This document shows, piece after piece, positions 16,301-39,402 of a DNA stretch of 40,585 nt. The position numbers were made by a program, and so were the translations under genes. Positions within the stretch are counted from its first letter, which is position 1; every line of letters starts with the position of its first letter. The notes below the pieces were generated by a model. It was not told the DNA's origin, searched no databases, and worked only from the letters and a program-made list of their open reading frames with translations. This DNA comes from an uncultured Victivallales bacterium (GTDB lineage Bacteria; Verrucomicrobiota; Lentisphaeria; Victivallales; UBA1829): contig CALXSJ010000027.1 in NCBI GenBank assembly GCA_944391115.1, positions 1-40,585 on the forward strand. Reading direction: 5' to 3'.

Positions 16301-16346
16301 GATGTTTTCTCCATTTCATCCATTTATTCAAAAAAAATTAGGTTAA

Positions 16347-16699
16347 TACCGCGATGCTCTGCATCGCCAAAAATTGCTTCGTGCAGGACTCTCAGTCCTG
16401 CCGCGGTCCAGCTGCGTAAGCTGGTCGCCGGAGGCGAAATCCCCAATACCGCGCATGCTTGCATCGCGGTAATTTATTGAAAAATCAGTTTCATAGTGCG
16501 ATGCTCCGCATCGCCAGAATCGCTTTGTGCTTTCCAGTGAGTCCTGTCGCGGTCCGGCTGCGCAGGCTGGCCGCCGGAGGCGAAACCACCCCGATGGGGA
16601 TTTCGTGCTGCGCACGACCAGCGTCTCGCCGCTGGATCACGACAAGGGGCAGAGACCCTTGACCCCGAAAAAAATGCAAGGCTTTTTCCGTAATTTTTA
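16347..16699. repeat. Multi-hairpin intergenic repeat, cluster A (one partial and one full element)
   Basis: This cluster fills most of the gap between divergent genes. The partial element (16350-16444) has the stems GCGATGC/GCATCGC, GCAGGACT/AGTCCTGC, CCAGCT/AGCTGG and CGCC/GGCG. A link region with ACCGCG/CGCGGT follows. A second, more diverged and fuller element (16498-16699) then runs through CGATGC/GCATCG, a GTCCTG remnant, GGCTG/AGGCTGG, CCCC/GGGG, CGTGC/GCACG, a GC-rich arm pair, GGGGCAGAGACCC and a final A/T-rich terminator-like stem followed by TAATTTTT. The frames open across it are by-products of the repeat, not genes. Confidence 0.8.
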
Positions 16700-18153: not shown

Positions 18154-19520
18154 CAGTATTCAATAAGAAGGGGAAACCCTCCATTCTGATCGTGGACGAT
18201 GAACGCGGCACGCGCGAGGTGCTTGCCAAGTTCCTCCGCGCCGATTACGACGTGACGCTTGCCGAGGACGGCGAGATCGGCTTGAACCTCCTGAACCGCA
18301 ATCATTATGACCTCGTGCTGAGCGATATCCGCATGCCGGGCGCAACGGGGATGAAGATTCTGGAAACAACCCTGAAAATGACTCCTCCCCCGCCGTGCAT
18401 CCTTTTCACCGCCTATGGTTCCATCGAAAGCGCGGTCGAGGCGATGAAGCACGGAGCGTTCGATTTCGTGACCAAGCCGGTCAATTTCGATCAGCTGGAA
18501 ATCCTGATTCAGCGCGCGCTGGAGTCCGGGCGCATTCGCGAAGAAAACGCGGAGCTTAAGAAACGTCTGGATTCCAAGTTCGGCGTTGCGAACATCATCG
18601 GAAATTCCGCCGCGATCCAGAAGGTGATCGACAGTGTCCGCCAGGTTGCGCCGACGCGTGCGACAATCAGCATCACCGGCGAAAGCGGAACCGGAAAGGA
18701 ACTGATCGCGCAGGCGATTCACCAGCTCAGCGGACGCACCGGAAAATTCATTGCCGTGCATTGCGCGGCTCTGCCGGAGACCCTGCTGGAAAGCGAACTT
18801 TTCGGTCATGAGCGCGGCGCGTTCACCGGCGCGACCGAACAGCGCAAGGGGCGTTTTGAACTGGCCGACGGCGGAACGCTGTTTCTGGATGAGATCGGCG
18901 AGATTCCGCTTTCGACTCAGGTCAAACTGCTCCGCGTTCTGGAAACGCGCTCCTTTGAGCGGATCGGCGGGAGCGAGACGATCACCGTCGATACGCGCGT
19001 CGTGACCGCCACCAACCGCGACCTTGCCGAAATGGTCCGCGAGGGGACTTTCCGCGAGGATTTGTTTTACCGGCTGGATGTTGTGACGATTCATCTGCCG
19101 CCGCTCCGGGAGCGCCAGGAGGACATCCCCCCGCTCGTGAAGCACTATCTCGACTATTTCGCACGCGAGAACGGACGTCCGCTTTTCACGATTTCCGAAA
19201 GCGCAATGTCCGCTCTCTGCTCCTACTCCTGGCCGGGGAATATCCGGGAACTGAAGAACTGCATGGAGCGCATGGTGGTGCTGACGCGCGGCTCGCAGAT
19301 CGACATTGAAAATGTGCCCGTGAACATCCGGGAAAAGATCACTCCTGGCATTTCAAAGTCGATTCTGAATCCTGTCACCTGTGATCTGGAGAAGAATGAA
19401 AAACTTCTGATTCAGCGGGCGTTGAACGAGTGCGACGGCAACCGGACGCGTGCCGCTGAGAAACTGGGAATCAGCAGACGGACACTGCATCGGAAACTGG
19501 CCCAGTACGGATTGCAGTGA
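18150..19520 (+). CDS. Sigma-54-dependent response regulator (NtrC/AtoC family)
   Basis: Protein of 456 residues. The receiver domain, about residues 10-125, has acidic residues DDE near the start and phosphoacceptor D59 ([10 protein letters not shown]). The AAA+ sigma-54 activator domain has Walker A GESGTGKE, the GAFTGA loop that contacts sigma-54, a Walker B-like [11 protein letters not shown] and an arginine region [13 protein letters not shown] Fis-type HTH ends the protein ([24 protein letters not shown]). Phosphorylated by the coupled kinase, it would activate sigma-54 promoters; none with a clear GG-N10-GC core was seen in this window. Downstream is repeat cluster B, which probably ends the transcript. 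Confidence 0.95.
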
Positions 19521-19557
19521 AAAATAAACATTTCAGAACGCGAGGGCTCCGCGGCAG

Positions 19558-20016
19558 GTGTGAGACACCTGCATCCGGCAAGCACGGTCTGCCGTTATTT
19601 TTTCGAGATTTTATAAAAAAATATCTTCGTGCAGGACTCTCAGTCCTGCCGCGGTCCAGCTGCGTAAGCTGGTCGCCGCAGGCGAAATCTCCCCGATGGG
19701 GATTCCGTGCTGTGCACGGCCGGCGTTTCGCCGCCGGCCCACGACAAGGGTCAAAGACCCTTGACCCCGAGAAAAATGCGTTGCATTTTTCCGTGATTTT
19801 TAAGAAAAATTGCGGAGGAATCTTCGAGCAGGCTGTGTAAGCCGGTCGCCGCAGGCGAAATCTCCCCGATGGGGATTCCGTGCTGTGCACGGCCGGCGTT
19901 TCGCCGCCGGCCCACGACAAGGGTCAGAGACCCTTGACCCCGAGAAAAATGCGTTGCATTTTTCCGTAATTTTTGAGAGTGTGAGACACCTGCACCCGGC
20001 AAACACGGTTTGCCGT
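19558..20016. repeat. Multi-hairpin intergenic repeat, cluster B: two tandem elements bracketed by 38-bp direct repeats
   Basis: Element B1 (about 19624-19804) is a chain of eight small stems: GCAGGACT/AGTCCTGC, CCAGCT/AGCTGG, CGCC/GGCG, TCCCC/GGGGA, CCGTGC/GCACGG, GGCCGGC/GCCGGCC, CAAGGGTC/GACCCTTG and AAAAATGC/GCATTTTT followed by a T-run. Element B2 (about 19830-19975) repeats it at a 173-base period, nearly identical from 19671 on (two differences seen over about 130 bases), but lacks the first stem. The pair is flanked by direct repeats at 19558-19595 and 19979-20016 (35 of 38 identical), each with its own small stems. It occupies the whole gap between two convergent genes and could end transcription from both sides. 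Confidence 0.9.
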
Positions 20017-20040
20017 CTTTTTATTGATGAAATTTACTGG

Positions 20041-20820
20041 TCAGTCATGGCATTTGCAGTTTCCGTCATGAGCATGGCATCCTTCCCCGTGCTCATGCGC
20101 ATGATGATTGCACTGGAATCCGGGATCCGTCTTCAGCGTTCCCGCCAGATAGGCGCCGACCGCCTCAATGACGCTACCGCTGACTCCGGGAACCACCTGA
20201 ATCCCGTTTTCCGCCAGGGCAGCGAGGGCTCCGCCGCCGATTCCGCCGCAGAGCAGCACCTCCACATTGCGTTCCTTCAGAAAACCCGCGAGCGCGCCGT
20301 GTCCGCTGTCCCCGGTCGGTTCGATCCGCATGGCATCGATGAGTCCGTCCTTGATCGTGAAGATCGCAAAGGCCGGTGTCCGCCCGAAGTGCTGGAAGAT
20401 TTCCTCGTTTTCGCATGTTGCCGCAAGAATCATTGTTTTTTCTCCTCTTTGGGTGTTGTTTGAATATTGTGGAATGGTTTCATTTGTATGCGCCATGCGG
20501 CGGCAGTTTCCGCACGCCGCATGTTTTTCGCAGTCCGGCGCGGGCTCGCCGAAATCTCCGTCCGGAATCACGATATGCCAGCCGGAGACCAGCGCGGATA
20601 TGAGTTTCTCCCGTCCGGCGCGGAGCAGACGCTGCACGGTGCCCCGCGAGACCCCCATTTTTTCCGACGCCTCCCCCTGTTCCAGATGCTCCAGGTCGAC
20701 CAGACGCATCGCCTCCAGCTCGTCCAGCGGAATGTTCACCGAACGCGTTCCGGACTGAGCCCGGAAACGCCGGCATGCGGGGCGGCAGCAAACTCTCCGG
20801 CATTTTTTGGCCCGCGGCAT
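20041..20820 (-). CDS. DUF134 (UPF0251) DNA-binding domain fused to NifX/NifB-type Fe-Mo cofactor domain
   Basis: Protein of 259 residues. Residues 1-100 are a DUF134/UPF0251 putative DNA-binding protein: a cysteine-rich start (CRRVCCRPACRRF), IPLDELEAMRLVDLEHLEQGEA and the helix-turn-helix MGVSRGTVQRLLRAGREKL. After a linker, residues of about 130-235 form a dinitrogenase iron-molybdenum cofactor-type domain (FQHFGRTPAFAIFTIKDG, LLCGGIGGGALAALAENGI). A His/Cys-rich tail (HHAHEHGEGCHAHDGNCKC) suggests metal binding. The two domains are commonly neighbouring genes; here they are in one frame. A nitrogenase role is unlikely, as no nif genes are near; metal-responsive control is more plausible. 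A promoter with a palindrome lies upstream. Confidence 0.85.
   Translation of the reverse strand: MPRAKKCRRVCCRPACRRFRAQSGTRSVNIPLDELEAMRLVDLEHLEQGEASEKMGVSRGTVQRLLRAGREKLISALVSGWHIVIPDGDFGEPAPDCEKHAACGNCRRMAHTNETIPQYSNNTQRGEKTMILAATCENEEIFQHFGRTPAFAIFTIKDGLIDAMRIEPTGDSGHGALAGFLKERNVEVLLCGGIGGGALAALAENGIQVVPGVSGSVIEAVGAYLAGTLKTDPGFQCNHHAHEHGEGCHAHDGNCKCHD
20431..20451 (-). other. Internal ribosome-binding site and start codon inside the DUF134-NifX gene
   Basis: Read on the minus strand, AGAGGAG followed by AAAAAAC and ATG (start at 20433, residue 130 of the fusion, beginning MILAATCENEEIF). It lies exactly at the start of the NifX-type domain and in frame. A separate product of 130 residues (20433-20041) could be made alongside the full fusion. 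Confidence 0.5.
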
Positions 20821-39328: not shown

Positions 39329-39339
39329 TTCCGCTTCCG

Positions 39340-39402
39340 CGCAGGACTTTCAATCCTGCCGCGGTCCAGCTGCGTAACCTGGTCGCGGAAGGCGAAATCT
39401 CC
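39340..39402. repeat. Partial, degenerate copy of the multi-hairpin repeat (copy C)
   Basis: GCAGGACTTTCAATCCTGC then CGCGGTCCAGCTGCGTAACC and a GGCGAAATCTCC block match the first third of the elements at 16347 and 19624. The first two stems are degraded by point changes. It begins 12 bases after the oadB stop. Confidence 0.75.

Follow-up and report, generated by a model that had tools for sequence, protein, structure and literature searches.

A hairpin array in a Victivallales genome and the family of apparently guide-directed mobile repeats from which it probably derives

The hairpin array and its surroundings

The window, i.e., the whole stretch of 40,585 nucleotides analysed here, is contig C27 of the 3.66-Mb draft genome (G000) of an uncultured Victivallales bacterium. 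Between positions 19540 and 20030 it contains an array of short hairpins, preceded by a gene for a sigma-54 response regulator, which ends at 19520, and followed by a convergent gene on the minus strand, which carries DUF134 and Nitro_FeMo-Co domains and has its stop at 20041. The frame of the latter gene (20041-20820, minus strand) is a single ORF of 259 aa fusing the DUF134 domain with the Nitro_FeMo-Co domain.

Eight perfect stems, each of 5-9 bp, follow one another at 19631-19791, and the last of them, GAAAAATGC-gtt-GCATTTTTC, followed by a T-rich tail, was scored as terminator-like. These are the eight consecutive stems within about 160 bases, ending in a terminator-like stem and a T-run, of the preliminary description of this DNA. 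The region 19540-20030 holds 18 perfect stems, whereas 500 dinucleotide shuffles contained 2.0 on average and never more than 7, and its RNA folding gave z = -9.5; terminator-like sites numbered 4, when 1.1 were expected. A block of 147 nt (19659-19805) is found again at 19832-19978 with 97% identity and a spacing of 173, so that the second, almost identical copy was described correctly, except that the first two stems of the first copy are not perfect there. The array is flanked by a direct repeat of 49 nt (19558-19606 and 19979-20027, 86% identity), whose first 38 nt are the reported 38-bp repeats, identical at 35 positions. The statement that all stem arms are intact holds for the eight array stems, which are perfect, but in the left flanking repeat the terminator stem, CGGCAAGC...GTCTGCCG, is imperfect; therefore, not all stems are intact. 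The features of the array and of related sequences elsewhere in the window are collected in Table 1.

Table 1. Repeat modules, hairpins, and mobile elements in the window
Feature	Position	Strand	Content	Basis
Module D, left copy	19546..19606	+	Hairpin 19554-19572, imperfect terminator-like hairpin, T-run	nhmmer, stem search
Degenerate left end of ~150-bp element	19607..19626	+		Comparison with L252 (end of G016:C37)
Module A	19627..19689	+	H2 19631-19649, H3 19656-19672, H4 19673-19685	At least 150 genomic homologues
Stem joining modules A and B	19690..19702	+	TCCCC-gat-GGGGA	Stem search
Module B, reverse-complement homologue of A	19698..19796	-		Alignment with A, stems
Stems of module B	H4' 19705-19719, H3' 19720-19737, H2' 19745-19763, H1' 19771-19791	-	H1' terminator-like	
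Covariance-model match in module B	19700-19764	-		
Second module A, truncated	19832..19870	+	H4 intact, 19846-19858	
Second module B	19871..19970	-	Four stems all present	Module search, covariance model, stems
Module D, right copy	19978..20022	+	Terminator-like CGGCAAAC-acg-GTTTGCCG 19997-20015, then T-run	
Complete ~150-bp mobile element	16323..16478	+		99% to family consensus
Left part of this element	16323-16328 (target TTTATT)	+	Target, A-run, guide GGTTAAT, hairpin H1, module A	
Right part of this element	16473-16478 (terminal TTTATT)	+	Guide CCCAAT, hairpin H5, terminal TTTATT	
Second element, diverged, in tandem	16473..16694	+	TTTATT in common with the first; modules A and B	
Diverged module A copy	39339..39399	+	Followed by a TTCATT-type right end	

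Modules, copy number, and conservation of pairing

The 38-bp direct repeats belong to a module of their own, D, which bears a terminator and consists of a hairpin and a terminator-like hairpin. The module is found elsewhere too, including 3' of module A in relatives (L060, L082, and L087), and its two copies around the array were rejected as target duplications. The array itself is best described, on its arrangement, as a BIME-like mosaic, in which composites mix modules A and B, mutually inverted homologues; in the comparison of module B with reverse-complemented A, the linkers GGTCC, GGTCG, and CGAAATC are conserved and the stems are different. At another locus (L020) two element ends separated by 344 bp enclose a module B and a second module A. 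A clean TTNATT right end is lacking in composite A+B arrays of the kind found at 19540-20030.

A covariance model, R1, built on hairpins H3 and H4, gave at least 150 matches in the same genome, where a DNA search gave at least 82 pieces (40 of 140 candidates scored) and where about 20 copies of one element of about 150 bp are 95-100% identical. Contigs C16, C17, C25, C35, and C44 of this genome terminate inside the element; the repeats therefore break the assembly, and the copy numbers are lower bounds.

In an alignment of 37 sequences, 99.3% of the cells of hairpins H3 and H4 are paired, and two-sided changes in four H3/H4 pairs were counted in 29 cells, compared with 6.3 in shuffles; shifted partners, taken as a control, pair in just 20-34%. 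Hairpin H2 occurs as several sequence variants, each of which pairs (GCAGGACT, CAAGGGTC, and GCAGGTC), and it is lost from some module A copies, so the conservation of pairing is strong and not absolute. The dozens of intergenic copies and the compensatory stem changes predicted in the preliminary description were thus both found, the latter in H3/H4, and its suggestion of selection on structure or of hairpin-dependent spreading is supported.

The same changes would also be expected of a functional RNA, chiefly a bidirectional terminator or a 3'-end stabiliser between convergent genes, for which spread would be secondary. The position of the array between two convergent genes and the terminator-like stems above chance agree with it. 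However, single-stranded DNA hairpins would equally conserve pairing, genes stand beside module A in all four orientations (according to crude gene calls), and the corresponding locus of one congener (G017) is repeat-free. The Rfam search returned no family above the gathering score and nothing convincing at E <= 1. A functional RNA alone would also leave unexpected the insertion polymorphism and the agreement between guide and target presented below, and this explanation is considered unlikely.

Anatomy and insertion of the intact element

The intact element is about 150 bp long, too short for a transposase gene, and has palindromes near both termini. Its parts are, in order, the target TT[N]ATT, no more than two bases, an A-run, the guide [N']AT(A/C), hairpin H1 (GCGATGC-NNN-GCATCGC), module A (H2, H3, and H4), the right guide CCC[M']AT, hairpin H5, and the terminal TT[M]ATT. 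The end hairpins are alike, and TACCGCGATGC and GCATCGCGGTA are similar inverted sequences at the two ends. When the copy at 16323-16478 was folded as single-stranded DNA, z = -6.5 was obtained, and its ends pair with each other. Copies in head-to-tail tandem have one TTTATT in common and a period of 150 bp.

The flanks of copies in the genome under study were searched in two congeners (G016 and G018) and compared base by base. At locus L013 the occupied sequence reads GCTTCATT / TCAAAA...GGTAATTTATT / CGAATTC and the unoccupied site of G016 reads GCTTCATTCGAATTC. At this locus, as at L022 and L143, the sister site is TTCATT, which the occupied site keeps as its left 6-mer, the right one being TTTATT; L021 and L028 have a pre-existing TTTATT in the unoccupied site. 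No target duplication was found at these five compared sites. Since the unoccupied sites match the left 6-mer, this one is the old target and the right one belongs to the element. Insertion occurs 3' of a pre-existing TTNATT, which is kept on the left, and the right end is fixed as TTTATT or TTCATT. A flank logo has almost no information to the left of TTN and, on the right side, little beyond a pyrimidine bias at +1. These unoccupied sister sites, together with the matching of guide and target, directly support the spreading of intact ~150-bp members.

Similar inverted end sequences and direct 6-mers flanking the element are what would be expected if the repeat were a MITE mobilised by a DDE transposase, or else a cassette of a site-specific recombinase. 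Nevertheless, the two 6-mers differ and the unoccupied site equals the left one, which rules out DDE-type target duplication, and the target base tracks a base inside the element; this origin can be regarded as very improbable.

In two of the insertions (L013 and L022) the stop codon of the neighbouring antisense gene went from TGA to TAA, supplied by the element. When open antisense frames of 100 codons were considered at single right ends only, an antisense-frame stop was found at 9 of 15 ends, compared with 55 of 465 (12%) background TTYATT sites (Fisher p 2e-5); selection against insertions within genes suffices to explain this excess. GC skew is positive on the element strand in 28 of 37 loci (p = 0.003, with gene direction uncontrolled and the replication origin not located). 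Placement on the G-rich strand is the direction expected for insertion into the lagging-strand template.

The locus of the array also differs between species. In G016 the left side of the array has a complete left end of the element, TTTATT / CAAAAAAATTTAGGTTAATACCGCG, with the hairpin present and a matching guide base; in the array described here, H1 of the left end has been lost. In G017 the same two genes are separated by a short gap with zero repeats. Because G016 keeps the complete left end and the gap of G017 is repeat-free, the array, judging from the sister species, was most probably seeded by insertion of a ~150-bp element at TTTATT, after which rearrangement and duplication would have given its present form.

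It is also worth mentioning that at two sites occupied in both species (L014 and L027 here, L203 and L207 in G016) the copies are distinguished by two internal positions (T/C and C/T), the same at both sites, which would fit homogenisation of the copies within each genome; collapse of repeats during assembly could look alike, the overlap between contig ends being about 75-81 nt.

Guide base and target base

Of 63 non-tandem sites, 52 have a target base N that is Watson-Crick complementary to the guide base N', and 4 have a G-T pair, when at most 39 matches were obtained in 20,000 permutations; these sites are not fully independent, since three main lineages dominate them and some are common to two species, and the test concerns one variable guide base. 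The genome under study has two groups of near-identical elements, with guide GGTTAAT or GGTTGAT, one of which also has an additional T at the left end. The first group is found at TTTATT and the second at TTCATT in 10 of 12 cases; guide A is associated with T, and guide G for the most part with C (Fisher p 7e-5). The elements of G018 have C as the guide base and mostly TTGATT as the target. At the right end, guide-A lineages always have TTTATT and guide-G lineages mostly have TTCATT or TTTATT; agreement between right guide and cleavage site is weak, at 27 of 48 Watson-Crick pairs, some of these matches being spurious.

In IS608, TnpA chooses the target by pairing with a guide located 5' of a hairpin (PMC5934647; PMC6006769), the target is retained on the left, and a change of the guide, which has been made in the laboratory, re-targets the element (PMC5934647). 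By analogy with IS608-type transposons, base pairing with a guide letter within the repeat apparently determines the six-letter site next to which the intact members insert, and nature appears to have carried out the same re-targeting in groups that, the guide base and the extra T aside, are nearly identical.

Search for the mobiliser

In the genome under study the search for TnpA (PF01797) found a broken remnant only, and none that is apparently functional was found in the genus: G016 has one truncated match, G018 has none, and G017 has fragments in addition to an IS200-type TnpA frame (L183, G017:C2:52-408) that is otherwise intact and has the HUH motif HIP, not HIH. The resident IS200 remnants were rejected as the source of the repeat ends, as their own ends (...CCGGTGGTTTTGACT) differ. 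TnpB (PF07282) was not found in the search for a TnpB-bearing IS605, the search for a Y2 (IS91) transposase gave no match with the controls likewise unmatched, and no gene-bearing longer copy with the same ends occurs in the ~1.5 Mb of DNA examined (overlaps counted). At a contig end in G018 (L044, CASEFP010000197) an IS200-like right end, CCACCGGCTAAGCCGGTGG, directly adjoins a module A copy, a junction which suggests that IS200 elements may insert into these hairpins. Since draft assemblies break at repeats and this IS200-like end lies at a contig end, an intact enzyme may be unassembled. A comparable situation has been reported from Haloquadratum, in which PATEs have moved though nearly all tnpA genes are pseudogenes (PMC3119063).

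A RAYT (NF047646) was found in none of four congeners, although the E. coli control matched, and RAYT was rejected as the mobiliser. This bears on another explanation, in which the repeats would form a REP/BIME (REPIN) system with a RAYT transposase as its driver. Hairpin mosaics in intergenic DNA with inverted pairs, present in hundreds of copies, are in agreement with it, and so is the guide-like sequence 5' of the hairpin, as in REPs (PMC6006769). However, besides the absence of RAYT in these four genomes, NAT(A/C) precedes the hairpin on the 5' side in place of GTAG or GTGG, and the insertion of entire ~150-bp units is documented, so that such a system is very unlikely here.

Proposed mechanism

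It is proposed that the array is a module mosaic derived from non-autonomous mobile elements that move, or once moved, by single-strand transposition of the IS200/IS605 type, to which a probability of about 0.8 is assigned. According to this model, the left guide, just 5' of H1, would pair with the flanking target TT[N]ATT, and the right guide, just 5' of H5, with the terminal TT[M]ATT of the element itself. Working in trans, a transposase would then cut the element out as single-stranded DNA, which would be inserted 3' of a matching TT[N]ATT, with the target remaining on the left side and zero duplication. The right end is often a valid target itself, which would explain the head-to-tail tandems with one common TTTATT. 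As the right end carries an antisense stop codon (TAA or TGA), insertions hitting the stop codon of a neighbouring gene restore it. Modules A and B are exchanged between composites, the pairing being kept by compensatory change.

A less expected form of single-strand transposition should also be considered, in which the enzyme that moves the guide-directed elements would belong to none of the recognised Y1 (TnpA/RAYT) families, and the internal hairpins would be of use to the host or to the element, e.g., as terminators making insertions at stop codons harmless. This can be regarded as possible and not probable.

Relation to known systems

The closest named class is that of the PATEs of Haloquadratum walsbyi (PMC3119063). 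Common to both are a length too short for a transposase, near-terminal palindromes, a lack of target duplication, a 5' targeting oligonucleotide, insertions specific to strains or species, and tnpA genes that are mostly pseudogenes. In contrast to the PATEs, the host of the present repeats is a bacterium, a resident IS605-type element whose ends match was not found, and there are an internal hairpin chain under compensatory change and natural changes of the guide base that track the target. By these likenesses the repeats can be classified as a PATE-like variant with BIME-like mosaics; they are filed as PATE-like and not as a member because no related resident transposon was found, an absence which in draft assemblies is no proof.

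With the IS200/IS605 elements IS608 and ISDra2 (PMC5934647) the repeats have in common a left-side target, a guide 5' of the hairpin foot, and a right end that has a putative guide of its own and a cleavage site. The ISDra2 target TTGAT (PMC5934647) is also the pentamer of most targets in the G018 lineage. On the other hand, the repeats have no internal tnpA or tnpB, about 3 nt separate the guide from the hairpin, and no enzyme was found. Intergenic, mosaic clusters of hairpins with inverted pairs are common to the repeats and to REP/BIME/REPIN sequences (PMC6006769; PMC3733652), compared with which they have no GTAG tag and no RAYT, a longer unit, and a family essentially limited to one order. 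The family may be of wider interest: it links REP-like mosaics to IS200-type targeting in a phylum for which searches of the Lentisphaerota literature gave no relevant description of such repeats, it provides a case of a mobile repeat settling at stop codons and restoring them, and, being apparently recently active with no visible transposase, it raises the question of the mover.

Distribution of the family

Model R1 gave at least 150 matches in G018, 115 in G016, and 6 in G017, and 36-52 in each of four species of the sister genus. Most genomes of the phylum sample have no match, and the phage, plasmid, and viral-contig collections gave zero family matches. Weaker matches were obtained in some members of the order's second family and in one genome elsewhere in the phylum. 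In one genome of that second family (G044, loci L274-L276), copies of the H2-H3-H4 hairpins are located immediately 5' of N-termini that look prepilin-like when read by eye, or in frame with them.
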